The position numbers and the translations under genes were made by a program. A stretch of 64,000 nt of DNA, taken from NCBI RefSeq assembly GCF_020905295.1, contig NZ_JAJJMM010000001.1, forward strand, positions 5,952,001-6,016,000, written 5' to 3'. Positions 5,412 to 54,726 of the stretch are shown here, piece after piece; position 1 is the stretch's first letter, and every line of letters begins with the position of its first letter. The stretch comes from Flavobacterium piscisymbiosum (GTDB lineage: Bacteria > Bacteroidota > Bacteroidia > Flavobacteriales > Flavobacteriaceae). Under the pieces are notes generated by a model, which did no database searches, was not told the origin of the DNA, and saw only the letters and a program-made list of their open reading frames with translations.

Positions 5412-7760
5412 TTATTTTTCAACCCATGCAGCCCACCCGCTCCCGTGTGATGACCTTGTGTATAGTTTATTGCTAGATAAATCTATAGCGAGCATTGTTC
5501 CATAAGAGGCTGACGCCTTGTATACGTTAACAGAGCATAAGTTAGAAGTAGGCGCATTAGATGTTGCTCCCCCGTTATTTGCTAAAAATGTTGATGTTGA
5601 GTTATTCGGCATACTATCAAATACTGTATCTAAATTAGTAGCACCTAATGAGGGTGCTGAAATACCCGTTGCTGAAATAGTACCATTAACTTGCAGTTTG
5701 TCTACTCCGTTGTCTGTTGCAGTTCCAATTAAAACATTTCCTCCTGTAAGCATTAAAGAGTTATTAAAATTAATTTCACCAGCTACATAAGAATTACCCG
5801 CGTCATTTAAAAAACCAATAGATGGGAGATTGTTTCCTCCTAGCCTAATGAAAACATTTTTATTTGTTGCCAAATTAACTTGAAACTTATCGAGGGGATT
5901 AGTTGTTCCTATACCTACGTTAGTACCATTATCAAAAACCTGACTATTTCCAATTGCCCCAGTCCCTGTGAATCTCGGTAAAAAATTAGGTGTTCCCGTT
6001 CCTGTAATGGGGTTTGTTAATGTAGTTACTGAGCCATCGGCTTTTAAATATTCGGTTGCAAGACCTCCGATCTTAATAAAGGAATTTGCTGTAATATCCC
6101 CCGTTTTATTAATTCTAGAAACTGTACCTATTGTCGGGTTAGAACAATTTAAAAAATCTGAATTTACACTACCTGATTCATTCCTTATTGTGATTATAGA
6201 GGCACTTGTCAATGTTCCATAATTAGAAAATGTAGCTATGTTTCTATTAAAAGAATTAAATCCTGATACAATTAAACCTACTCCTGAATTTAAAGCATTT
6301 ATAGTTGCCGCGGCTGTTCCTGTTCCTGATACTGTAGCATTTAACGACGCTGTTGACCCGCTTGTCGTATCAAATGATTTTGATCCAGTTATAGTTTCTG
6401 TTCCAGTTTTATGAACCACGTTCGCATCGTTTGCCGGAACATACGCTAAGTTAGAACTTAATACGCTCCAATTCCCTGCAGTCTGTCCGGGTGCGTCTGT
6501 TAGCGCTCTGAAAGAATCGCCTACAGAAACCGCCTTACCTCCTAAAGTTCCGGCTACCGACACGTACCACAGATCACCCTTTAAAACTGCCCCACTTGTC
6601 CCACTTCCTCCGGTTGTTGGAAATACATTTGTTGATGCATTATAAGATCCTCTGTCATCCAAAAGACCAACAACCAAACCATCCGCGTAGGATTTAGTTA
6701 CTAAATGATTTGCAGTAGTAGGATTGGCTCCAGAAACATTACCCGTAGTTATGATATTACCTTCTTTGTCTATTGTAGCTTTAACTACTCCTGATTTTGA
6801 TACTGTAAAAGGCATTCCCAATGAACTTACTCCTGTATCTAAAACCAATAATTTACATGTATTTGTAGAAGAATCTCCTCCTGTACTATTTATACTTAAT
6901 AAGGTTCCGCCAGAAATATTAGACCCAGTTTGAAAAGTAACAAGTGTGCCTGAGGTTCTATTTTGAACACCTGAAAAAAGTGCTTGACCTGAATCTGAAT
7001 TAGTAAAGCTTTTTTGTCCTTTGAAATTTTCATTTCCTGTTAAATGTAACGCTGTAGGTGTTGTTGGAGCATCTGCTGTACCTCCAAGATCACCCGCAAG
7101 TTTTACAATTCCTTTTACAACTGTCGTAGCATCAGGAACTACAATTGCAGCTAGACCTGCATTAACCGCATCAACCGTAGGATATTTAGTTCCGCTCCCA
7201 TCAACTGCCAAAGAGTTTTGTTTATTGATCACTTTCTCGTAATCTCCTCCTACTATCGGTGGTGTATTACCAATCGTTGCATCTGTAATATTAATAATTG
7301 TAACTAATACGGTATCAATTGGAGTTGGCGGAGTCGGCGAAATCCCTACTGTTTCAGGGCCAATGACACGAATGATGTGATTGTTTTTGTCAGCAACCAA
7401 AATATCATTTCGGGTATAACCATCTTCAGCATATTCAATAGTGAATGAAGTATCACTAATTGTTGAATAATTTACATTGCCTATGATCCATTGTGCGCCG
7501 GATGCAACCTTTACCTCGTTTACTAGAACAGAAATATTAGCTGATAATAATTGATTTTGACGAATTGAATAAAACCAATCAAATATTTGTTGAATCTTGA
7601 TTTTAAATGATGTACCGGCATCACTTACATGAATTTCAGATTCTGGACGCAAAACTGATTGCCATGGTAATTCGATGATTTTCTTGGCATTATTTGCAAT
7701 TGCATTTAATCTTTCAGTTAATGCAGCGACTTGTTGAGTAATAAAGGATTGAAAGCTCAT
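5412..7760 (-). CDS. Tail fibre / receptor-binding protein with C-terminal knob
   Basis: 782 residues. The ATG at 7760 (MSFQSFITQQVAAL) is preferred because upstream in-frame codons lie in the promoter and begin only with TTG. The N-terminal 130 residues look like a tail-attachment region; the middle is Gly/Ser/Thr/Asn-rich and repetitive (SFTNSDSG, GSKSFDT, GIGTTNPLDKFQV), typical of fibrous trimeric beta structures. The C-terminus YTRSSHGSGWAAWVEK resembles a pyocin-knob domain. No S74 chaperone is visible. First gene of the operon with holin and endolysin. Confidence 0.85.
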   Translation of the reverse strand: MSFQSFITQQVAALTERLNAIANNAKKIIELPWQSVLRPESEIHVSDAGTSFKIKIQQIFDWFYSIRQNQLLSANISVLVNEVKVASGAQWIIGNVNYSTISDTSFTIEYAEDGYTRNDILVADKNNHIIRVIGPETVGISPTPPTPIDTVLVTIINITDATIGNTPPIVGGDYEKVINKQNSLAVDGSGTKYPTVDAVNAGLAAIVVPDATTVVKGIVKLAGDLGGTADAPTTPTALHLTGNENFKGQKSFTNSDSGQALFSGVQNRTSGTLVTFQTGSNISGGTLLSINSTGGDSSTNTCKLLVLDTGVSSLGMPFTVSKSGVVKATIDKEGNIITTGNVSGANPTTANHLVTKSYADGLVVGLLDDRGSYNASTNVFPTTGGSGTSGAVLKGDLWYVSVAGTLGGKAVSVGDSFRALTDAPGQTAGNWSVLSSNLAYVPANDANVVHKTGTETITGSKSFDTTSGSTASLNATVSGTGTAAATINALNSGVGLIVSGFNSFNRNIATFSNYGTLTSASIITIRNESGSVNSDFLNCSNPTIGTVSRINKTGDITANSFIKIGGLATEYLKADGSVTTLTNPITGTGTPNFLPRFTGTGAIGNSQVFDNGTNVGIGTTNPLDKFQVNLATNKNVFIRLGGNNLPSIGFLNDAGNSYVAGEINFNNSLMLTGGNVLIGTATDNGVDKLQVNGTISATGISAPSLGATNLDTVFDSMPNNSTSTFLANNGGATSNAPTSNLCSVNVYKASASYGTMLAIDLSSNKLYTRSSHGSGWAAWVEK

Positions 7761-7781: not shown

Positions 7782-7823
7782 CAAATGTAAAAAATATTAT
7801 TCTATTTAGAATCATTCTAAATA
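7782..7823 (-). promoter_or_regulatory. Late promoter and palindromic operator A of the fibre-lysis operon
   Basis: The -7 element TACATTTG (minus strand) is at 7782-7789. A perfect 21-bp palindrome around TTTAGAATCATTCTAAA occupies 7803-7823, its centre 24 bases upstream of the -7 element, in place of a TTG -33 box. The same arrangement occurs at 22196-22241. Confidence 0.7.
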
Positions 7824-10209: not shown

Positions 10210-12471
10210 TTATCTATTTAGTTTTAAAACTTTAAACTGACCTTTACCGTTAGGCTTAATGTTCAAGAAGAAAGCTCTCTCCTTTTCGCCGTTTTCATTT
10301 ATAAATTCAATCAAACCGTATAGATTTATTACTTCTTTACCTAAGATTGTTGTAGTACCATTGATCTGCTGTAGAACATCAAAATCGCAAATATGTTCAA
10401 ATTCAATTTCCTCTGGAATAAAACGAGCAGTTGGCAATTCCGAATTCAAAATATCACCATTCTCAGCATATTCATTGCGGCCGATCATCTTTGTTTTAAG
10501 CAATCTGTTTGCAGTAGATGAACCAAACTTTAATTTATCTGTTGCGTATTTAATTACTGAAGCTGCTATCCACCAACCGTGTCGCAATAAACAATTAACT
10601 GGTGAGAATCTTAAATTTGTGGCTGTCTCCGGGCTGAAAATACCTGTCGGAGCTTGCTCGAAATCATCCTTTGTTCGATCGTACTTATTAAACCAAAATC
10701 TTTGTTCAAATCCTCCTACTGGATTCTTAAACAGGTCTAACCAGAAAATATCTTCATCATAAGAAGTATCTTCAGTATCGTTTAATGTGACCAGCTTTCT
10801 TCTAGCGAACTCCATTCCATAACTATCGGCTCTATATTTTGAGATTTGGATATAAACATTTTTAAGTCTGCTGATGATTGTTGAAAAATTAGATTTCACA
10901 TTATATTCATCCAATCCAACTGCTTCTTCATAATCGCCGCCTTTCTCATAACCGAATTCTAAAGCAGAATAATACTTGTCAGTAGCTACTTTCCTTTTTA
11001 CATTTTTTACCTGGTTAGGAAGCCTAATAGTTACGTTTCGATTATAGAAATAGCTTTTTTCTTCAATTCTTACTACTTCCTTATTTCCAATTGTTTCGAT
11101 ACCAATTCCAATATTTAAGACTGCAGTAGCAGAAGTCGCAAAGTCACTGAATGATGTTGTCAATGGCTTGAATAGATTTGTAACTTTATCTTGAGTGATA
11201 GTTTCTTCTTGTGGAATTGGAAGCTTATCAAACTTTCTAACCCAAAAACCATGTGTAAAAGCAATATAAGCTCCAGGTCCGTCAACTGCATATCCTAAAT
11301 CTTTTCTACCAAAATAATCAGAATAAAATACCCGCTCTTTGTTTGTTGAAATTGTAACTAAGCGATCAGCTAATTCATGAGCCAAAATTGCTTTCGTCGT
11401 AGATTTTTCCTGAAAACTATCTTCGTCAATATCAACTTTACAAACAACATCGGAAACTGTAATATCTAAATGCGAACTATGGCCATTAGCACCATCGTAA
11501 TTCTGATCAAAAACAAGTTGTAGACTTTCGCCCGTTAGCACTTCGATCGTACCATCAAAATTCACGCTGAAAGTATTTCCGTTTAAAGCAGAATAAGAAT
11601 CCTTTGAAAATAAAATAATATTTTCCTTAAAAATAAATTCTGCTCCATCTTTATACTTACCGATTCTGGCCCAAAAGGTGAAATGATTAACATCATCGAA
11701 ATTTGTTATGTTTACTTTAAAAGTAAGTTTCATGTTTACTTTTAAATCACGATCTCGATCTGAAATAGCAAAAAATAGGTTTCCTGGCTCCGCTCTTCCC
11801 GATCTATCCCAAGAATTATCGCCAACCAATACCCCCTGAAGCGGCGCTTGTGCACTTTCATGTGACTTATTTACAAGTGAAAGAGGTACAGCAATCGTAC
11901 TACCTCTGGTATTACCATTTGTTTGATTGCTTAATTTTGCTGTATTATCACTTGCCTTAGTTGCAAATTTTGTTTGTAGAAAAATTCGTCTACCATCTAA
12001 TTCAACATCGATTGTATTTAATTCCGGAATCTTAGTATCATTAAATGTTGTAGTTCGATCAACTTCCACACTTTCGGATTCCCGGGCTTTTAGTTCCTGT
12101 TCTAATCCCCCAGAATTGAATTTAACCATCACTTGAACTCTATTTTCTCGACTCCAGGTTGAAAGATCTAAAAAGCCAGAATAAGTCAATGTCCAAACGT
12201 CAGTTTGTGGATGTCTCTCTCTTCTAGTCAATTCAACATCGGCCATAATCCCGTCGATATCATAAATCAGTTGAATATATTCTGCAGCATCCCCGATGAA
12301 CTTTAGGGAATTAGAAAACTTAGCTACTATTCCGTCATACTTTTCATGACGTGAATATTCCTTATCATCGTCGGTCCATCCAATTGGCTCAATAGTTACC
12401 AACTCCCCAAAATTTTTATTTTTTAAGGTGTACTCAACACGGTTGTTATATTGTGGATTTATATTTCCCAT
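10210..12471 (-). CDS. Tail tip protein, downstream of tape measure
   Basis: 753 residues from the ATG at 12471, which shares its A with the tape measure stop (TAATG), a translational-coupling arrangement; an upstream in-frame TTG would add three residues. The protein is beta-rich with no catalytic motif that I recognise (EYTLKNKNFGELVTIEPIGW near the start). In Bacteroidota siphoviruses the gene after the tape measure usually encodes a distal tail or tail-hub protein, so this is the inferred role. Confidence 0.7.
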   Translation of the reverse strand: MGNINPQYNNRVEYTLKNKNFGELVTIEPIGWTDDDKEYSRHEKYDGIVAKFSNSLKFIGDAAEYIQLIYDIDGIMADVELTRRERHPQTDVWTLTYSGFLDLSTWSRENRVQVMVKFNSGGLEQELKARESESVEVDRTTTFNDTKIPELNTIDVELDGRRIFLQTKFATKASDNTAKLSNQTNGNTRGSTIAVPLSLVNKSHESAQAPLQGVLVGDNSWDRSGRAEPGNLFFAISDRDRDLKVNMKLTFKVNITNFDDVNHFTFWARIGKYKDGAEFIFKENIILFSKDSYSALNGNTFSVNFDGTIEVLTGESLQLVFDQNYDGANGHSSHLDITVSDVVCKVDIDEDSFQEKSTTKAILAHELADRLVTISTNKERVFYSDYFGRKDLGYAVDGPGAYIAFTHGFWVRKFDKLPIPQEETITQDKVTNLFKPLTTSFSDFATSATAVLNIGIGIETIGNKEVVRIEEKSYFYNRNVTIRLPNQVKNVKRKVATDKYYSALEFGYEKGGDYEEAVGLDEYNVKSNFSTIISRLKNVYIQISKYRADSYGMEFARRKLVTLNDTEDTSYDEDIFWLDLFKNPVGGFEQRFWFNKYDRTKDDFEQAPTGIFSPETATNLRFSPVNCLLRHGWWIAASVIKYATDKLKFGSSTANRLLKTKMIGRNEYAENGDILNSELPTARFIPEEIEFEHICDFDVLQQINGTTTILGKEVINLYGLIEFINENGEKERAFFLNIKPNGKGQFKVLKLNR

Positions 12472-15400
12472 TAGTTCCAATTAGTGTTTTTTGATTTCCA
12501 AATAGCATGAGGAATATCTATTTTAGGTGCATTGTACACGGCTTGCTTTTGATTCCTAATAGCGGCCGTATTACGTTTTAACTCTTCTAAAAGTTCTTTT
12601 CCATAAGAAGCTTCAAAATATTGAGAAGCTTGGAAATCGCTCATGTTTCTGCCTTCCATGTTGAGACTGGTCAACATCGCTGCTCTTTGCAATTTGTTAT
12701 AATCATCAAAGGATTTATGTACAGTATCGCCTTCTAAAAGTTGAACAATTCGATTCTTTCCGGAATATATTCTTGCACTACCATCTTTAGATTCTACGAT
12801 CTCGGTCATTCCACCGTCATTGATCATCGCAACTTCTTTCGGACCTCCTTTACGACCATCTTTGTATTTTGGTATTGGAGTTGCGATGATAGCTGCTAAT
12901 TGAACAGCAGCAACTGCCGCAGTAATAGCTGCTAACGCTAAACCAATACCAGGGCCGGCAGATAGAGCCGAAGTGATTGCTTTCGCAGTATTATAACTTG
13001 CTTCGGCAATGGCTAAACCTTTATTAAATATGGCTTGCTTTTCCTGTTCTTTACGTTTCTTTTTCTCTAAAGCCTCATTCTTTTTATCACGCTCTTTTTG
13101 TAGAAGATCCTTTTGTCTTTCGTCTTTTCCTGCTAATTCAATTTGCTTAGCATAGTACTCATCATTTTTAGATTGTTCAGCTTCTATATTTTGAATCCTA
13201 CTGTCAAAAATTGCATTACCCAGATCTTGTAGGGCATAAGTTAAATCTCGAGATCTTTCTTCTATTTTTTTAAAATTTTCTTCTTCGAAAAACAAAGTCT
13301 TTTTTGTTGCTGCATCGTTATTTTCAACATTGATATCTGAATTTTCCCTTCTCAAAGTTGCTAATTCATTCTCTAATTTCTTTATTTTATCAATAGAAAT
13401 AGCAGATCCGTCGGTTCGTAACTTTTCTGCATCTAATAATTTTTGTATTACTCCAATCTGAACATTTAAAGCTTCTTTCGCAAATGCCTTTTTTATCTCA
13501 AGAATTTTTCTTTCGTGTTCTTCCTGTGCCTTTTCTAGATCCGTAAATTTATTTAAGGATGCATTATAAGTAATATTTTCCGCTTCAAGAGCCTCTTGAA
13601 GTTTGGTATCTTGAAGTAATAGTTCAGCATCAATACGCTTTTTAATCTCATCTGCTTCGCTATCGATAATTTTTTGACGATCCTTAACACCTTTCAAAGT
13701 CAACTTCTTTTGATCATCTTGAAATTTTTCTAAGATCAATAATTGTCCAGATGTCAGTTCTTTTTTAATCTCACCATTTTCTAACAGAGTTTTAATTTCC
13801 AAATCAGAAAGCTCACGCATTAGTTTTCCAGTCTTTTCGTTATACTTTCCTAATTGTGACAATTCAAACTCTGCTGCATTACGTATTTTTTCAGATGCGA
13901 TCTGTGTATAATCGGCAAGAGCATCAAGTCTTTTATCATACGACATTTTCTCATTCCCAAGAATCTCATCATCCATATCCAGACCAACCTGAAGTCTAAA
14001 TTGTTGCAACTTGAAAAGATCTTCAAGGCCTTTTTTCCAAAGTTCGAATTGCTCTTTTAACCTTTTTCTCAATGCAGCAAGTTCTTTCTTTGAAAGTTCT
14101 TTTTTAAATTCAGCATCTTTGATTGCAGCATCTTGTTCTAAACTCTGCAATTGTTTTTTCAATCTAAGCTGCTCCTCTATGGATAATTTTGAACTTTGAG
14201 CTTGAGTGGCTTGCTTAAAGTCCTTTTTTTCTTTCTCGGTTCTAATTAACTCATCAAGATCTTCACTTGTCCGACCTTGTTTACTTACTCTATAACCACT
14301 ATTTTCTAAAACTTTTTGTTCTAGCTGGAACTGAGCGATTCTTTGCCTTGAAGCATTAATCTCGCTTTGAGTTCTTTTTGTTGTTCTAGCATCCAAATCT
14401 GCAAGAACATCTATACTGGATTGAATTACTGCTTTCTTTCTGGTAATTTCCTCTTTATCTAACTTATCTGAATTTTCACCTTGCGCTTTTCTAAGTTTAA
14501 TATCATTTTCAATTGCCTTAAATCGATCAGCATTTGCCTTGTCTCTCTCTTCGGAATAGAATTTTTCAGTTTTAGCCATATCTTTATTCGCATCAACAAT
14601 CCTCTGAATGTTCTTTTCAGCATCACTCATTTCATCATTAAATATCATGTAAGCAACAATTGCAGCAGATAAAAACGCAAGAATCAACCCCCATGGAGTT
14701 GCTTTAACTGCTACGTTCAAACCTTCCTGAGCAATCATCGCTTCTCTGGCAGCAGCTGCTTGTGCTAGAATTGACTTTGTTCCAATTCCCGTTGCTAACG
14801 CAAATCTTATTTGTGCAGCAGTTGCGGCAGTTTGTAATGCGCCATATGCTGTAATAACAAAATTTACTGTCCTGAGAACACCCAAATATGTCAGTAAAAC
14901 AGTTCCAAACTTGACAATAAAATCAATGATTTCTTTGAAATTATCACGAACAAATTTCAAAGTCTTAGCGAGAGTTAGTGAACCCGAATTCGCATCATCA
15001 GCGCTTAAGATATAAGCTTCCCAACGATCCTTTATATCGGATAAAATAGATGATAAACTTTCAGAAGCCGCCTCAACTTCTTTATTTAATGCAATATTAT
15101 CGATATACTCTTTTTTAGCTTGTTCCATTGCACTTGCTAATAAATCATAGTTTGCCGCTAAGGATCCAATTGTTTTAAATGACCTAACCTCATCCAAACC
15201 TAATTCACCTAATACAACCGCTAAATTTTGACCTTCTTTTTTAGCTGAATTAAGTCCCTTAATGAACTTCACAAATACACCGGTAGCATCTTTATTAAAT
15301 TGCTTAGAAAGTTCTTTTTGAGTCAAATTTGTTAGCTCTAATACTTTCTCTAAGTTTTTACCCGTTGCAATAGATTTATTAATTACACCAAATGTTTTTT

Positions 15401-16610
15401 GAATAGAACTAGCAGAAACCTCAGCTTCGGATCCTAATGATGAAGTCGCTGCTCCTAATGCTAAAACTCCCTGCGCGGAAGTATTATATACCGCAACACC
15501 TTTTTGAATCTCTGTCGCATTCGCAAGAACTTCTTTCTCAGTCGTTGCAAATGAGTTACCTAATTGCGTGATAACCGATGCTAAACGATCAGCATTTTCA
15601 AAACTGTCAGATGATACCTCGATGAACTTGGCAAACTGGCCAACCTGCTCATCTGAAATAATATCTGATGTCAGTTTTAATTTTTCAATAGCTTCTGAGA
15701 ACTTTAAAATATTAGCGGTACCGGTTACACCTAACTGTCCAGCAACCTCAGCTGATTTAATTAGTCCCTCAACTGTAACACCATTTAATCTATCTCCAAG
15801 TTCTACTACTTCGCGACCAAATTGTTTTAAGTCTTCACCAGAAATATTAGTTGTTTTTCCTACCGCAATTAATTGTCTGTCAAAATCTTTAATTACACTA
15901 AAGATGTCTTTTACAATTTGTCCAAATAAAGCTAATCCTGTTGCGATTCCAAACGTTGACATTAAGTCTCTTAAGGTTCCGTTTAGACCTTTGAACGCAT
16001 CTTGATAATTACCTATATTTTTAGAGTAGTTTTTTATTGCAGCATCAACTGCTTTAACTCTGGCATCTAATTTTTCAAATTCTCTCTGCGCCAGTATGAC
16101 CTCCGCAATATTACTTTTCTCAGCAGATAATAATTCAGCAAGTCTTTTTTGTGCATCAAGCCTGGCTTTATTTAATTTGGCATATGCTCCAACAAGACCG
16201 AGCCTTTCCCTTGCAGCTTCTTTTAATTGTTTATTAGTTTCAGCTAACAAAATTTTTTCATCCAAAGTCATTTTATTGGTTGCCTCTTTTGCTTTGCGCT
16301 CTTTTTCTTCTAGAGCAATAGAGGAAATTTTGATTTTGTTCGCAGAAATTTCAGCAGCTTCTCTTTCTTTGATTGCAAGAATAGCTTTTTGCGTGGCTAA
16401 TATTCCCTGCTGCAGAGCATCTGTGTAGGCAGAATTACCGGTTGCATCTTTAATCTGTTTCTGAATAGTAGCAATCTGAACAATACCTTGCACAAATTCT
16501 TTATTTTTATCAATTGCAATTTGAGTTTGTTTCGCGTATGTCGATCCCCAGGTTAGAGCATCATCTTCAATGACCTGTTTTCTTGTAATTATACCGTCTG
16601 AATTAGCCAT
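12471..16610 (-). CDS. Tail tape measure protein
   Basis: 1379 residues, the longest protein here. The N-terminal 200 residues are coiled coil; the TP901-type core follows (DRQLIAVGKTTNISGEDLKQ, then VEGLIKSAEVAGQLGVTGT). Hydrophobic segments lie around 560-660, and a long charged coiled coil with repeated KKE/EEK runs covers about 700-1200. At about 1.5 Angstrom per residue it predicts a tail near 200 nm. Its first 40 residues (ITRKQVIEDDALTWGSTYAK) reappear in a separate small gene at 54116-54274. Confidence 0.92.
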   Translation of the reverse strand: MANSDGIITRKQVIEDDALTWGSTYAKQTQIAIDKNKEFVQGIVQIATIQKQIKDATGNSAYTDALQQGILATQKAILAIKEREAAEISANKIKISSIALEEKERKAKEATNKMTLDEKILLAETNKQLKEAARERLGLVGAYAKLNKARLDAQKRLAELLSAEKSNIAEVILAQREFEKLDARVKAVDAAIKNYSKNIGNYQDAFKGLNGTLRDLMSTFGIATGLALFGQIVKDIFSVIKDFDRQLIAVGKTTNISGEDLKQFGREVVELGDRLNGVTVEGLIKSAEVAGQLGVTGTANILKFSEAIEKLKLTSDIISDEQVGQFAKFIEVSSDSFENADRLASVITQLGNSFATTEKEVLANATEIQKGVAVYNTSAQGVLALGAATSSLGSEAEVSASSIQKTFGVINKSIATGKNLEKVLELTNLTQKELSKQFNKDATGVFVKFIKGLNSAKKEGQNLAVVLGELGLDEVRSFKTIGSLAANYDLLASAMEQAKKEYIDNIALNKEVEAASESLSSILSDIKDRWEAYILSADDANSGSLTLAKTLKFVRDNFKEIIDFIVKFGTVLLTYLGVLRTVNFVITAYGALQTAATAAQIRFALATGIGTKSILAQAAAAREAMIAQEGLNVAVKATPWGLILAFLSAAIVAYMIFNDEMSDAEKNIQRIVDANKDMAKTEKFYSEERDKANADRFKAIENDIKLRKAQGENSDKLDKEEITRKKAVIQSSIDVLADLDARTTKRTQSEINASRQRIAQFQLEQKVLENSGYRVSKQGRTSEDLDELIRTEKEKKDFKQATQAQSSKLSIEEQLRLKKQLQSLEQDAAIKDAEFKKELSKKELAALRKRLKEQFELWKKGLEDLFKLQQFRLQVGLDMDDEILGNEKMSYDKRLDALADYTQIASEKIRNAAEFELSQLGKYNEKTGKLMRELSDLEIKTLLENGEIKKELTSGQLLILEKFQDDQKKLTLKGVKDRQKIIDSEADEIKKRIDAELLLQDTKLQEALEAENITYNASLNKFTDLEKAQEEHERKILEIKKAFAKEALNVQIGVIQKLLDAEKLRTDGSAISIDKIKKLENELATLRRENSDINVENNDAATKKTLFFEEENFKKIEERSRDLTYALQDLGNAIFDSRIQNIEAEQSKNDEYYAKQIELAGKDERQKDLLQKERDKKNEALEKKKRKEQEKQAIFNKGLAIAEASYNTAKAITSALSAGPGIGLALAAITAAVAAVQLAAIIATPIPKYKDGRKGGPKEVAMINDGGMTEIVESKDGSARIYSGKNRIVQLLEGDTVHKSFDDYNKLQRAAMLTSLNMEGRNMSDFQASQYFEASYGKELLEELKRNTAAIRNQKQAVYNAPKIDIPHAIWKSKNTNWN

Positions 16611-19807: not shown

Positions 19808-21091
19808 TTATGCTGGAGTTATATTTCCTTCAAACTTCAATACATCCTCTTCAGATAATTTGTTGACACCAGCCATAATATTAGCATCCGTGGTACTAAA
19901 AGTAATTGTAGAATTTGGCTTGATAAGTTTGTAAGAAGCAACAACTGAAGATTTGGTGTAATTTGTTCCCTTATAGGCAAAGTTTGCGTCACCTTCTGTT
20001 TGCGCATCAATAACAGCTTCTTCTGCATCCAATACATAAATGCTACCCACATTGTCGATGATTGGAAGCGCTAAACCTTGTACAGAAATGTTCTCAGCGA
20101 ATGGCTCTTCGTCTCTCCAAAGTTTGGTCATGATATACTGATCAACAAAAGTGTATTCAACCTTTTTTGAAGGTCGTGTTGCTTCAGCTAACTTACTCCA
20201 TACAAGACGTCCAACTTTTGTCGAAGTCAAAAACACAACTTTGTTTGGTGTCCAGGTTGGAACAGTAGTTCGAACTCCATTTCTTTCATGTGTTACTGTA
20301 CGATCCATTATCTGAATTTGCACTTTGAATTGGCTGTTGTTTTTCAACATCAAGTTTACCTTTTCTAAATCAAGACTTGGAACGTTCTGAACTGAACCAA
20401 CATAATTATTGTAAAAAGCAAACTGCTCTCTTACTTGAGTATTTCGAGAAAAATTATCAAATGTTGTATCATCCATTTTAAGAATAGAGATCGTATCGCC
20501 TTTTGCCTTTGCAGTTTTTAAAACGCGCTTAATATCATCAAGAGGTTTTGCATTTGCATCCGACCATGGTAATACAACTCCAAACTTGTTCGCATTTAAG
20601 TAACGAAAGTTAACTCTGAAACCAACCCCAACATTAGTATCATCATCAACTAACATTAATCCGGATGATAAAGCTTGGTCGTAGCGGTACTGCATTGTTT
20701 CTGCAACACCGGAAACCAACTTAACTGCACCAGAAAATAATTTTTCTGCTACTGTAGCGGTATCAGCGCTTTTCGCAATCATATTGTCGATATCGCTTAA
20801 AAGTCTCTCAGAAAGAACAATCTTCTTACCGAATTTCGGAACCTCTCCCGTGGCCACTCCTAGCTTATCCCATTTTGCCAATGGCAAATCAGAATCCATT
20901 GCAACGAAATCAACAGTAACAACTGTATTATCGATGCTTCCTGTATTCCAGGTCATATCTGCACTGAACTCTTTTTTAAGTTCAGTTGTGAAAGTATACT
21001 GCAAAGGATCTTTCGAACCATTTACACGCAACTCTACCGCTTTCATCATTGCCTTAAAGGCTGCGATGTACTGTATTAAAATACTTAACAT
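19808..21091 (-). CDS. Major capsid protein, lambda gpE-like family
   Basis: 427 residues. The segment TPNKVVFLTSTKVGRLVWSK and the following EYTFVDQYIMTKLWRDEEP match the signature region of the gpE-like major capsid family, as does the position after a small decoration-like protein. It assembles the icosahedral head. The last 100 residues contain an extra beta domain (NFAYKGTNYTKSSVVASYKL) that may project from the capsid surface. Confidence 0.85.
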   Translation of the reverse strand: MLSILIQYIAAFKAMMKAVELRVNGSKDPLQYTFTTELKKEFSADMTWNTGSIDNTVVTVDFVAMDSDLPLAKWDKLGVATGEVPKFGKKIVLSERLLSDIDNMIAKSADTATVAEKLFSGAVKLVSGVAETMQYRYDQALSSGLMLVDDDTNVGVGFRVNFRYLNANKFGVVLPWSDANAKPLDDIKRVLKTAKAKGDTISILKMDDTTFDNFSRNTQVREQFAFYNNYVGSVQNVPSLDLEKVNLMLKNNSQFKVQIQIMDRTVTHERNGVRTTVPTWTPNKVVFLTSTKVGRLVWSKLAEATRPSKKVEYTFVDQYIMTKLWRDEEPFAENISVQGLALPIIDNVGSIYVLDAEEAVIDAQTEGDANFAYKGTNYTKSSVVASYKLIKPNSTITFSTTDANIMAGVNKLSEEDVLKFEGNITPA

Positions 21092-21511: not shown

Positions 21512-22162
21512 TTATAAAATGTTTTCAACAATTTTTTCAGCTTCAGCATCTGAGAATTTAGCTGCGTCCGGTCTTCCTTGCGGAGCACGTCCGGCATAAT
21601 CTCCTGAATCTGCAACTCCTTGCACAAGTTCAGTGTACTCTGTTTCCAAAGCAGTAACTTGATCTTCAAAGGGAGTTTCTGAATCCAAATCAATACGCTT
21701 TAGCCAATTTGCCTTTATATCAGGTTTTAGACCTTTTAAAATTTCAGACTTGTCAAGTAATGACTGAGCTGTTTGAGTTTTAGATCCAATAATTTTTTCT
21801 GATTTAAGAGCTTCCAGATCTTCCTGAATTTTCTTCGCCCATGCTGGAGCATCGTCCGCTGGTTTGGGTGTCGGATTGTTTGGATCAGGATCCGTTGTAG
21901 GTGTTGGCGTTGGAGTTGGTTCTGGTTTTGGCTTTTGGTTCGCCTCTAATGTTCTGATTCTATCATCCTCACGGGCAATTTCTTCAAAAGACATAAAGTC
22001 GTTAGCTGTTTCCAATACTGCATCAATAGCTTCATCATCTGCATCGTCTGCTGGTTTCAAACATAGTTTAGCCGCCAATGCGTCTATCCTTTTTGTCGAT
22101 AAGTTCGCCTTAGGAAATTTTATCTTAAGTCGTGCCTTAATCTGTTCTGGTTTAACTGCCAT
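21512..22162 (-). CDS. Capsid scaffold-like protein
   Basis: 216 residues from ATG 22162 (MAVKPEQIKARLKIKFPKAN); upstream in-frame codons fall in the promoter. An N-terminal helical segment is followed by a Pro/Thr/Asp linker (PKPEPTPTPTPTTDPDPNNP) and an acidic helical C-terminal half. First gene of the head-tail operon, before decoration and capsid genes, the usual place of a scaffold. It could instead be a structural head protein. Confidence 0.6.
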   Translation of the reverse strand: MAVKPEQIKARLKIKFPKANLSTKRIDALAAKLCLKPADDADDEAIDAVLETANDFMSFEEIAREDDRIRTLEANQKPKPEPTPTPTPTTDPDPNNPTPKPADDAPAWAKKIQEDLEALKSEKIIGSKTQTAQSLLDKSEILKGLKPDIKANWLKRIDLDSETPFEDQVTALETEYTELVQGVADSGDYAGRAPQGRPDAAKFSDAEAEKIVENIL

Positions 22163-22195: not shown

Positions 22196-22241
22196 CAAAA
22201 GTAATAAAGTTTTTCTTATTTAGAATCATTATAAATAAGAA
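22196..22241 (-). promoter_or_regulatory. Late promoter and palindromic operator B of the head-tail operon
   Basis: The -7 element TACTTTTG (minus strand) is at 22196-22203. A 29-bp palindrome with one mismatch, core TTTAGAATCATTATAAA, spans 22213-22241; its centre (22227) is 24 bases upstream of the -7 element, exactly as in operator A. Confidence 0.7.
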
Positions 22242-52031: not shown

Positions 52032-52117
52032 CAAATATATATCTAATATTAGATATAAATAACTAAAATTAGATATTTTTAATCTAACAATATCTAATTT
52101 ATAATCATTCTAAATTA
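52032..52117. promoter_or_regulatory. Lysogeny switch region: early leftward promoter and operators
   Basis: The leftward -7 element TATATTTG (minus strand) is at 52032-52039. It is overlapped by the perfect 20-bp palindrome TATATCTAATATTAGATATA (52038-52057). Further half-sites TTAGATAT (52069), ATCTAA (52082) and ATATCTAA (52090) lie between. A 23-bp palindrome with one mismatch, core TTTATAATCATTCTAAA, is at 52095-52117, just before the repressor ATG. Confidence 0.75.
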
Positions 52118-52121
52118 TAAA

Positions 52122-52826
52122 ATGGATTCAATCGGAGAAAGATTAAGCTTAAAAATGAAAGAAAACGGATTAAACCCTAATAAAATAGCAGTATCAACGG
52201 GTATCCACCCAACGACAATAAAAAATTATCTTAACAATATTGGAAATCCTGATAGTCTAAAATTAGATAAAGTTGCAGAAGTATTAGATATCAATTTAAA
52301 ATGGGTTCTAACCGGTGAAGGTGAGGTTGAACGTAAAAAAGAGCTACTAAAAGATGAAGTCGTAAATCACGTGGCCGAAAATCTGATGTACGTTCCTTTA
52401 GTGAATCAGTACGCATATGGCGGCTATCTAAATGGTTTTAACGACCCAACATATATTGAAGAACTTCCGAAAATTCCTTTTTTAGTGGAAAAAGAACATA
52501 AAGGTGACTATATCTGCTTTGAAGTAAAAGGTGATAGTATGGATGACGGAACACATGAAAGTTATCTCGAGCGTGACATTCTATTATGCCGAAATGTTAG
52601 AAAAGATTTTTGGAAAAGTAAATTACACATAAACAAATGGGATTTTGTAATTGTACACAAAGACAACGGGATTTGTGTAAAGCGAATAATTAAGCATGAC
52701 GTTGAAAAAGGGATCATCACTTGTCATTCCCTTAACGATTACTACGAAGATTTTGACATGGACCTGAGAGATGTGACAAAGATTTTCAACATCGTAGACA
52801 TCCAAAGAAAAAGAAATAGAAGATAG
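52122..52826 (+). CDS. CI-type phage repressor with S24 peptidase domain
   Basis: 234 residues. The XRE helix-turn-helix is at about 17-45 (NPNKIAVSTGIHPTTIKNYL). The C-terminal LexA-like domain has the catalytic serine S139 in GDSMDDG and lysine K187 in GICVKRI. YAYGGY (97-102) is a plausible self-cleavage site. It would keep the lysogen silent and be cut upon RecA activation. The only gene facing right at the switch, divergent from the early operon. Confidence 0.93.
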   Translation: MDSIGERLSLKMKENGLNPNKIAVSTGIHPTTIKNYLNNIGNPDSLKLDKVAEVLDINLKWVLTGEGEVERKKELLKDEVVNHVAENLMYVPLVNQYAYGGYLNGFNDPTYIEELPKIPFLVEKEHKGDYICFEVKGDSMDDGTHESYLERDILLCRNVRKDFWKSKLHINKWDFVIVHKDNGICVKRIIKHDVEKGIITCHSLNDYYEDFDMDLRDVTKIFNIVDIQRKRNRR

Positions 52827-52887: not shown

Positions 52888-53376
52888 ATGAAAAAATTTT
52901 ACTTAATTACTTTTCTTTTTACTTCATTAATAATTCACAGTCAAGATTGTAAATACAAAAGGAACGAAGTGGATGAATTTACCAAACACAAAGTTCTAGA
53001 AACGAAATCTGAATGGCTTGCCGAAAATATTGCCTACACATTAATAAAAATTAATGATGCAAAATTTTTAAGCATAGAATTAGGATCTTTTAAAGTTTTT
53101 GCAATAAGCGATGGTGCAAAGTTGATGTTCTTACCAGATAAAGGTGATCCTATTGTCTTGTTATTTCCAAAATACGAAATTTCAAAAACAACTCCTGGCG
53201 CAGTAGCTAGTCAATACGTAACTCAAAGTATTAATATTTCGGATGAAATTTATCAAAGATTCTTGGATGAAAAAATAACTAAAGTCAGATTTTATACAAC
53301 TGATGGATACATTGACAAACCGGTTAAAGAAAAACGAGCAAATAAATTTAGACAACAATTAAAGTGTATTGAATAG
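52888..53376 (+). CDS. Secreted protein, lysogen cargo
   Basis: 162 residues with a signal peptide (MKKFYLITFLFTSLIIHSQ, cut near 19). The mature part is beta/alpha (FLSIELGSFKVFAISDGAKL) and basic at the end. It follows the repressor gene by 61 bases, so probably shares lysogenic expression. Not recognised; an exclusion function is possible. Confidence 0.65.
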   Translation: MKKFYLITFLFTSLIIHSQDCKYKRNEVDEFTKHKVLETKSEWLAENIAYTLIKINDAKFLSIELGSFKVFAISDGAKLMFLPDKGDPIVLLFPKYEISKTTPGAVASQYVTQSINISDEIYQRFLDEKITKVRFYTTDGYIDKPVKEKRANKFRQQLKCIE

Positions 53377-53378
53377 AT

Positions 53379-53801
53379 ATGAGAAACATTCTACTATTAT
53401 TCTTGTGTACATTTTTGTATAACTGTCACAATAAATCAAGTCAGCCTATAGACTTATTAAAACTAGAAGCAGAGGGTAAACTGTTAAGCAAATTGAACGA
53501 TCCTGAATCATACGAATTTGTCAGTTTTACGGTTGACACCAGTGCTCGTGAAAACGCCAACAAGAGACTAAACGACTTGCAACGAATGTTAAAAGAATAT
53601 CAGCGAGATAGAAAAAATAATGAGTTAAAAATTATGATTACCAAGGAGGAAATAAACGCCACAAACATTCAGCTTTTTCCAAAAGATGAAATTGAATTTG
53701 CATATACCTTCAGAGCAAAAAACCAATTTAATGCGACGGTTTTAAATCAAAAAGTTGTTGTAAGTGATAAAACATTTAATTTTTTAAGATTTCAAGAATA
53801 G
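53379..53801 (+). CDS. Lipoprotein, lysogen cargo
   Basis: 140 residues. The lipobox LYNC at 13-16 follows a short hydrophobic start (MRNILLLFLCTF), so it would be a lipoprotein. The rest includes a helical stretch (NKRLNDLQRMLKEYQRDRKN). It starts 2 bases after the secreted protein gene and both are likely co-expressed. Phage lipoproteins of this place can block superinfection; inferred only. Confidence 0.65.
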   Translation: MRNILLLFLCTFLYNCHNKSSQPIDLLKLEAEGKLLSKLNDPESYEFVSFTVDTSARENANKRLNDLQRMLKEYQRDRKNNELKIMITKEEINATNIQLFPKDEIEFAYTFRAKNQFNATVLNQKVVVSDKTFNFLRFQE

Positions 53802-53863: not shown

Positions 53864-54121
53864 ATGATCGAAAGAATAGAAGATAAATGCAGAGAAATCA
53901 TTGATGCAAGATTTGCAGAGGTTGTATATAAGAGAACCGGAAATAAACTTGAGGATCAAACCTCACTTGGATCTTTGTTAGACGCTATTACGAAAAAATC
54001 AGTAGATGAATGCTTAAATTATTTAAACTCAGAAAATCCTGAAAAAGCAAATGAATTCGCGAAATCAGGATTTATAAACAGCTATATAAGCGAAAAGCAA
54101 AAACAGTTTCTAGGTCTATAA
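53864..54121 (+). CDS. Small protein, unknown
   Basis: 85 residues, helical and acidic (MIERIEDKCREIIDARFAEV). Its stop overlaps that of the convergent tape-measure-like gene. No motif. Confidence 0.55.
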   Translation: MIERIEDKCREIIDARFAEVVYKRTGNKLEDQTSLGSLLDAITKKSVDECLNYLNSENPEKANEFAKSGFINSYISEKQKQFLGL

Positions 54122-54274
54122 TTTTTTTAAAATCTTCTTTATTTTTTTAGTGGATTTTATAAATTTTTTGTTCAGCCTAATTACCTTTTTTACGGTTTTT
54201 GCATATTCATTTCCCCATTCCAAAGCTTCATTTGAAATAATGTCTTCTCTCTTAATTTGACCTTCGTTTTCCAT
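54116..54274 (-). CDS. Small protein resembling the tape measure N-terminus
   Basis: 52 residues (MENEGQIKREDIISNEALEW...). Residues 3-41 align without gaps to residues 4-42 of the tape measure protein at 12471-16610: EALEWGNEYAK against DALTWGSTYAK, and IxxxxNKxF in both; 15 of 39 positions are identical by my count. The remainder is a short basic tail. A consensus -7 element (54304-54311) with an operator-like palindrome in its spacer lies upstream. Possible roles: modulation of tail assembly, exclusion of related phages, or a relic of another tape measure gene. Confidence 0.65.
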   Translation of the reverse strand: MENEGQIKREDIISNEALEWGNEYAKTVKKVIRLNKKFIKSTKKIKKILKKL

Positions 54275-54303: not shown

Positions 54304-54333
54304 CAAATGTACTATTTAAAATGGTTCTAAATA
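54304..54333 (-). promoter_or_regulatory. Promoter and palindromic operator D
   Basis: Minus strand -7 element TACATTTG at 54304-54311. TTTAAAATGGTTCTAAA (54315-54331) differs from operator A at 3 of 17 positions; it lies in the spacer of this promoter and covers the start codon of the rightward gene at 54321. Confidence 0.5.
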
Positions 54334-54596
54334 AAGAAAATACTATAGATAAAAGAATATTACGCCTAATTGATGTTCTTATATTTCAGAACAAGGTTAA
54401 TCGTGAAGTAGACTTTTGTAGAGAAATAAATATTCTTCCACAAACAGTTTCAAAAATTAAGAATGGAACAAATCACTTTACAGTAACTCATATAGAAAAC
54501 ATCGTTTATAAATATAATGTCAATGCAAATTGGATTTTTGGCACTGATAAAAAAGTCTTCAATATGTCTGGAAGCATTGAAATTAGCGAAGTTTAG
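54321..54596 (+). CDS. Helix-turn-helix regulator
   Basis: 91 residues. EVDFCREINILPQTVSKIKN (30-50) is a helix-turn-helix and YNVNANWIFGTDK is the typical end of XRE-type domains in Bacteroidota (NxxWLxTG variant). It is the last gene before attR. It could control integration or the operator covering its own start. Confidence 0.7.
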   Translation: MVLNKENTIDKRILRLIDVLIFQNKVNREVDFCREINILPQTVSKIKNGTNHFTVTHIENIVYKYNVNANWIFGTDKKVFNMSGSIEISEV

Positions 54597-54700: not shown

Positions 54701-54726
54701 TTCGATTCCCGGCGACTCCACAAAAA
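54701..54726 (+). repeat. attR core, 26-bp direct repeat
   Basis: Identical to 1268-1293. Preceding bases (TGTAGTT) do not match the tmRNA, so this copy is only the 3' end fragment. Confidence 0.92.

Follow-up and report, generated by a model that had tools for sequence, protein, structure and literature searches.

The window, by which the whole stretch of 64,000 nt analyzed here is meant (in lists of loci, the name also stands for this Flavobacterium piscisymbiosum locus), contains a prophage of about 53 kb inserted at the tmRNA gene. Its landmarks are given below, the mimic being a 52-aa protein related to the N-terminal head of the tape measure protein (TMP).

894–1288, tmRNA gene, the attachment gene
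1268–1293, attL core, a 26-bp direct repeat in or at the 3' end of the tmRNA gene
1412–2572, integrase
12471–16610, minus strand, TMP, 1379 aa, PF10145
16452–16601, minus strand, TMP head (residues 4–53), homologous to the mimic
19808–21091, major head protein
52122–52826, plus strand, CI-like repressor gene, the first of several same-strand genes that include the 85-aa gene
52888–53376, plus strand (that of CI), 162-aa protein with a hydrophobic N-terminus
53379–53801, plus strand (that of CI), 140-aa lipoprotein-like protein
53864–54121, plus strand, 85-aa partner gene, convergent with the mimic gene, product predicted to be all-helical
54116–54274, minus strand, mimic gene, 52 aa, net charge +8
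54321–54596, plus strand, 91-aa Cro/C1-type HTH gene, divergent from the mimic gene with 46 bp between the starts
54701–54726, attR core, second copy of the 26-bp direct repeat

The match of the TMP to PF10145 is barely over the cut-off (33.4 vs 33.2 bits), and its named close homologues are from Flavobacterium. The mimic ORF ends 426 bp from attR; this adjacency, already part of the original prediction, is genuine, as the direct repeat shows. The 162-aa and 140-aa proteins are candidate superinfection-exclusion proteins of the Ltp kind.

Homology to the tape measure head and the mimic family

The 52-aa ORF was confirmed on the minus strand with an ATG start. It had been described as aligning without gaps to the beginning of the phage's own TMP, and this holds: mimic residues 3–52 pair with TMP residues 4–53 at a BLOSUM62 local score of 94. 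None of 2000 query shuffles reached this score (best 66), and the next unrelated frame among the 502 stop-to-stop frames of at least 40 codons in the window scores 45. The identity, counted by eye as 15 of 39 residues, came to 37% over 49 residues in the search, while the gap of about 38 kb between the two genes was measured as 37.5 kb to the TMP head. In an HMM–HMM comparison (HHalign), seven mimics and 35 TMP heads matched with 99.3% probability (E 2.9e-20). A profile built from nothing but the 35 heads recovered the window mimic with a best-domain E of 2.6e-14 among the 3373 frames of the loci compared, and in the same frames the four stand-alone ORFs that this set covered with whole-sequence E values of 3e-17 to 1.6e-13. 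Column-shuffled mimic sets (200) reached at most 10.0 bits, the real seven 42–61 bits. By these results, the mimic is a genuine, free-standing homologue of TMP N-termini.

It is not a full-length TMP, for which PF10145 and a length of about 1000 aa or more were required: it has 52 aa, a stop at 54116, and no PF10145 match. Judged by eye from the translation, it has no signal peptide, lipobox, or hydrophobic segment, and its N-terminus is charged. The AlphaFold2 model consists of a short helix and a long helix spanning residues 15–51 (mean pLDDT 82.6), and the helical moment of the mimics is 0.35–0.61. Mimics and heads have a signature in common, read from the alignment rows as approximately I-x-R-x-D-I-I-x-x-x-A-L-x-W-G-x-x-Y-x-K, which is retained in part by the two most diverged mimics (L076 and L077). 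They differ in charge: over the 42 shared columns, the seven mimics carry +4 to +9 and the 35 TMP heads −5 to +1. The head of the prophage's own TMP is not the nearest to the window mimic, standing at rank 25 of the 35 heads compared; in genome G195, the own TMP head is rank 1 of 35 for its mimic.

The stand-alone mimics are a single conserved family and not a relic. In a tree of nine mimics and 37 TMP heads, all mimics lie on one side of a branch with a support of 95/98, recovered in 94% of bootstrap trees; in a smaller tree of seven mimics and 35 heads, the support was 98/98. These trees rest on 42 columns only, most of their inner branches are weak, and they do not give the position of the root. 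The nine members are those of the window, P0003, P0004, P0027 (the G195 protein, from Flavobacterium agricola), P0028 (locus L035), P0029, L033, and the diverged ones in G823 and G859. Surroundings are available for six loci, namely the window, L024 (the F. agricola locus), L033, L035, L076 (from G823), and L077 (from G859); P0003, P0004, and P0029 come without them. The window and F. agricola mimics are 53% identical, whereas that of G823 is strongly diverged (profile E 1.3e-3). Other prophages of Flavobacterium likewise have a stand-alone copy in their immunity region. The frame, whose decay in related genomes would have spoken against the original prediction, is kept open in all nine stand-alone members. 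In L077, the diverged mimic (5950–6111) has a GTG start and no convergent partner, and genes of 64 aa and 194 aa come after it on the same strand.

Mimics are rare. They were found in two of 398 genomes of the genus and, with a better profile, in four of 396 genomes of an overlapping genus draw. In 397 family-wide genomes, no stand-alone mimic was recognized besides the window's own, some short weak frames being left aside. Of the 396 genomes, 16 have a head-bearing TMP (frame >1000 aa), and all four mimic carriers belong to these; this co-occurrence supports the link between mimic and TMP head. The corresponding chance of 1.8e-6 is a guide, as genomes were treated as independent and one search was used for both features. 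The distance from mimic to TMP is 23–41 kb in those four genomes and 34 kb in the L033 phage. The other 12 of the 16 genomes yielded no stand-alone mimic, as expected of an accessory cassette. In G195, there are two TMPs with almost identical heads (C1:491969 and C1:842679), 350 kb apart, and the mimic cassette lies within 25 kb of the second only.

A tblastn search of the mimic against 50,697 phage records gave no match. Scans of viral contig collections yielded two loci and one further virus record, which was not counted apart, its mimic being 100% identical to that of G823 and its TMP a 100% match too. A scan of a genome contig collection gave no match and missed F. agricola as well, so this collection is no test of rarity. 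Two matches were set aside, a 161-aa lipoprotein-like frame in G249 and a 548-aa frame in G774, interpreted as a TMP head truncated by the end of the contig. Also left out were a 509-aa frame in G412 (mimic counts), the weak hits other than G774 in the family-wide draw, including short frames in G688 and G424, and G232, G212, G241, G383, G217, and G882 (count of four in 396).

The convergent partner gene and shared promoter elements

The mimic had been presented as a lone gene, a picture that is incomplete, as the convergent 85-aa partner was overlooked. The two genes converge, with 3' ends overlapping by 6–12 bp, in four of six loci (window, L024, L035, and L076). The overlap in the window is 6 bp, at the stop codons; in L076 (G823) it is 12 bp, the 85-aa homologue matching with E 2.5e-23. 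The G823 pair amounts to a blind confirmation, since the mimic was located first by its weak profile match and the 85-aa homologue was noticed afterwards. Conversely, each of the four clear 85-aa genes found faces a mimic. The homologue in L024 is 41% identical to that of the window (E 2e-21), and the L024 pair has CI-strand genes on one side and a related HTH gene (44%) on the other. The pair is common to these two prophages even though their integrases (E 0.10) and repressors (25%) are hardly alike. Among the 398 genomes, the 85-aa family is clear in two, the same two that hold stand-alone mimics (chance 1.3e-5), and in another draw it occurs in three of 328 genomes, all three with a mimic facing it. 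Three weak 85-aa hits among the 398 genomes (E 6e-4 to 0.0096) were taken as chance and set aside, one lying in a host region (G239) and two in frames over 700 aa (G072 and G334). The pair stands downstream of CI in the window and L024 and upstream of it in L035 and L076; given that the internal layout is unchanged, it seems to travel as a unit. The 85-aa gene is absent from the two remaining mimic loci, L033 and L077 (G859), and in the latter nothing is convergent with the mimic. In L033, a different gene of 90 aa (998–1270) occupies the convergent place, with only weak coiled-coil or XhlA-like matches.

AlphaFold2 modeling of the 85-aa protein from two sequences predicts four helices (mean pLDDT 82.7). 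A Foldseek search of this model against the PDB and BFVD gave no match at E 0.001 or better, and none of the searches linked the protein to a homologue or fold of known function. Searches with the mimic and the 85-aa protein in PADLOC-DB 2023, Pfam, PHROGs, NCBIfam, and PDB sequences returned only weak, scattered matches below the cut-offs, the lowest being Cnn_1N for the L024 partner (E 0.00098, 19.7 bits vs a cut-off of 28.5), phrog_13581 for P0029 (E 0.0037), and JetB for the L076 mimic (E 0.0053). Neither protein matched a toxin or antitoxin family. The HTH gene resembles PezA weakly (15.9 bits, cut-off 290).

The strands follow a rule. In four of four loci, the 85-aa gene shares the strand of CI. 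The mimic has the other strand in all six, which is that of the early genes as judged by neighboring gene runs and, in five loci, also by a large ATP-binding gene, labeled SbcC-like here. A divergent repressor-type gene adjoins the mimic in four of the six loci, with start-to-start distances to the HTH or CI gene of 46, 71, 70, and 51 bp (window, L024, L033, and L035). In the window and L024, the mimic lies antisense between the CI and 85-aa genes and the same-strand HTH gene, and in L033 it has the same antisense position but another partner. The TMP is less regular. It is on the strand of the mimic in three of the five phages with a known TMP (window, G195, and G421) and on the opposite strand in two (G823 and G859). 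In these two (L076–L079), the TMP strand is opposite to the early genes as well as to the mimic, unlike in the other three. In G823, TMP and mimic belong to one phage, both being in the same 47.7-kb virus record.

The upstream region of the mimic contains two elements, one of which is a TAnnTTTG box, the −7 consensus of Bacteroidota. These elements and their copies in the window are as follows.

54304–54311, minus strand, TAnnTTTG box TACATTTG of the presumed mimic promoter
54314–54332, 19-bp operator-like dyad, 2 bp upstream of the mimic box, overlapping the HTH start
52097–52115, dyad copy, 6 bp upstream of the start of the CI-like repressor
22218–22236, dyad copy ahead of gene 21512–22162, with a TAnnTTTG box 14 bp downstream of the dyad
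7804–7822, dyad copy ahead of gene 5412–7760, with a TAnnTTTG box 14 bp downstream of the dyad

The original prediction of a consensus promoter of its own holds for the box, which is perfect; no good −33 element was seen. The operator-like palindrome is present as the 19-bp dyad. Gene 21512–22162 precedes that of the major head protein, and gene 5412–7760, in the structural region, has no PHROG match.

The dyad, ATTTATAATNATTCTAAAT, is strongly enriched. With up to three mismatches, the window has nine strand matches (1.24 expected; as many in none of 100 shuffles), which correspond to four sites matched in both orientations plus one weak match. L033 has four (0.20 expected) and L024 five (0.64 expected), in each case with as many in none of 200 shuffles. 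In the 6.49-Mb genome, up to two mismatches gave 30 strand matches vs eight for a reversed control pattern; seven of the 30 fall at the four sites in the prophage. Exact matches number two, both in this prophage. Copies stand 1–13 bp before the CI start in the window, L024, L033, and L076, and in L035 one is 4 bp before the start of the 85-aa homologue and another at 651. At presumed late promoters, the dyad precedes the TAnnTTTG box by 14 bp in four of five sites (window 22218 and 7804, L025 9340, L040 5081) and by 16 bp in the fifth (L041 542), whereas at the mimic promoters of the window, L033, and L024 it does so by 2, 2, and 8 bp. Given this spacing (2–8 vs 14–16 bp), the same element could have opposite effects at the two kinds of promoter. 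The L035 mimic promoter instead has a 26-bp box, a second copy of which (one mismatch) separates the 85-aa homologue from the early genes; at the mimics of L076 and L077, no dyad was found. For prophages of Flavobacterium, the 19-bp dyad is a candidate element of a late or lysogeny regulon. Three loci have the 91-aa HTH gene beside the mimic, and its product may bind the dyad; in L035, an HTH gene stands elsewhere in the immunity region.

Its strand, the divergent repressor-type gene, and cis-elements that recur at late or early-region promoters together suggest that the mimic is expressed in the lytic phase. In at least four loci, it is wired into the lysis–lysogeny switch, most likely on the lytic side, a sign of regulation that we infer. 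Co-expression with the late genes is not general, since the G823 and G859 mimics are off the TMP strand and L076 and L077 are without the dyad. The earlier suggestion of a poison acting from the lysogen finds no support, in view of the early-gene strand (six of six), the divergent repressor-type gene (four of six), and the promoter elements in common with late or early regions.

A possible tail-interference cassette and its alternatives

With the convergent partner taken into account, the best reading shifts from a lone mimic to a two-gene cassette of blocker and antidote. We give a probability of about 40% to the proposal that mimic and 85-aa gene form a tail-interference cassette, with a blocker made in the lysogen and a decoy antidote made in the lytic cycle. 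In its favor are the conserved convergent pair and its apparent movement as a unit, the strand rule, the shared cis-elements, the co-occurrence of mimics with head-bearing TMPs, and the precedents described below. What we infer is the timing of expression, the tail block, and that the 85-aa protein binds both TMP heads and the mimic. In the lysogen, the 85-aa protein would be transcribed together with the repressor and would bind the conserved TMP head of related phages, stopping their tail assembly. Upon induction, the repressor strand would fall silent, and the mimic's own promoter, which reads along the early-gene strand, would supply the mimic. Acting as a free TMP head, it would occupy the 85-aa protein, and its transcript would run antisense into the 85-aa gene, after which the phage's own tails could be built. 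Where the 85-aa gene is absent, the mimic may counter another blocker. That such cassettes make up a class of molecular-mimic antidotes, in which a stand-alone TMP-head decoy with convergent wiring frees the phage's own tails from a co-encoded 85-aa head blocker, is a proposal that we consider somewhat less probable. Several observations count against the cassette: the partner is missing in two of six loci, the TMP is on the other strand in two of five phages, the window's own TMP head is at rank 25 of 35, two mimics have no dyad, the spacing of dyad and box differs between mimic and late promoters, the 85-aa protein resembles nothing of known function, and the basic charge of the mimic relative to TMP heads is not needed by a simple decoy.

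The proposed roles of the 85-aa protein as reader and blocker of the TMP head and of the mimic as decoy are modeled on the logic of two systems, Tab/anti-Tab and Tai/Ati, both compared here by their descriptions. The lysogen of the Pseudomonas phage JBD26 produces Tab, which targets the TMP and is neutralized by anti-Tab, a product of the late operon (PMC10884400). As in the cassette proposed here, the system is prophage-encoded, combines a lysogen blocker with a lytic antidote, and has its genes close together on opposite strands (PMC10884400). It differs in that the inhibition by Tab is tied to the C-terminal part of the TMP and that the pair lies between terminase genes and not in the immunity region; moreover, in the available part of that account, anti-Tab is not described as a TMP homologue (PMC10884400), whereas the mimic is one. 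In phi80 and its relatives, Tai is encoded on the strand opposite the late operon, from which the neutralizing Ati is made (PMC11364771). Like anti-Tab, AtiEcA counters a tail blocker made in lysogeny (PMC11364771, PMC10884400). The system is described as tail-assembly inhibition by a lysogen blocker, with an adjacent late-operon antidote and opposite genes in a noncontiguous operon (PMC11364771), features to which those of the proposed cassette may correspond. In gene layout, the order of CI, 85-aa gene, antisense mimic, and HTH gene in the window and L024 resembles this noncontiguous operon. The targets described for Tai are the central tail fibre or the tail needle, and TaiEcA has 26.1 kDa (PMC11364771), compared with 85 aa for the presumed blocker here, where the presumed antidote is a TMP-head homologue.

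A third point of comparison is given by exclusion lipoproteins of the Ltp/Sie type, whose genes are in the lysogeny module and whose target step involves the TMP. Ltp is a surface-exposed lipoprotein that mediates superinfection exclusion (PMC3952083). The mimic is unlike Ltp in having no signal peptide by eye, and the 140-aa lipoprotein-like neighbor in the window fits this class better. A limited search of the literature found no description of a TMP-head mimic.

The main rival to the cassette takes the mimic itself as the weapon, a dominant-negative TMP head that would join or cap TMP oligomers, or occupy the partner of the head, in related phages, with the 85-aa gene as antidote or unrelated. 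Homology to the TMP head, the predicted single long helix (15–51), the immunity-region position, the two loci of six without an 85-aa gene, and the location off the TMP strand in two of five phages are all compatible with it, and the reversed charge (+4 to +9 vs −5 to +1) could favor mixed coiled coils with the TMP. While the charge fits, the wiring does not: the early-gene strand in six of six loci and the shared promoter elements argue against expression in the lysogen, and production during the lytic cycle would hurt the phage's own progeny. On balance, this rival appears somewhat unlikely.

Alternatively, the mimic could be the phage's own lytic assembly factor, for example one that tunes TMP copy number or loading or occupies the tail chaperone, with the 85-aa gene as its regulator. 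The dyad common with late promoters in three loci and the restriction of stand-alone mimics to genomes with head-bearing TMPs (four of four) would agree with such a role. Since 12 of 16 head-bearing genomes yielded no stand-alone mimic, it looks dispensable for tail building, and the conserved pairing with a repressor-strand gene would be left unexplained; this explanation is improbable. Even less probable is a general toxin–antitoxin or addiction pair that uses a TMP-like sequence, in which the basic amphipathic helix would be toxic. It would account for the convergent overlapping genes and for the helical moment and net charge of the mimic, but not for a strong similarity that is specific to TMP heads and conserved at the N-terminal motif, and neither protein matches a toxin or antitoxin family. 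A relic of another TMP gene left by recombination, which the short length, the position next to attR, and the homology to a TMP end could suggest, is hardly credible in view of nine stand-alone frames, all open and all on one side of a supported branch (95/98), and of a layout recurring in separate prophages, as well as of the YN00 dN and dS of the two computable pairs of six (0.44, 1.48 and 0.31, 2.05; dS near saturation).

The mimic family stands even if the 85-aa protein binds neither TMP heads nor the mimic. Tab and Tai illustrate that prophages strike at their rivals at the stage of tail assembly, while blocker-binding antidotes keep them safe from their own weapon. In the cassette proposed here, the presumed antidote visibly copies the head of the target itself, which would point to a direct mechanism and name a target surface of 42 residues. 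If this reading is true, tail interference would be extended to Bacteroidota, and the conserved but unexplained TMP head would gain a role as a recognition site. It would also provide a rule for further searches, namely to look for stand-alone ends of structural proteins that are convergent with small genes in immunity regions.
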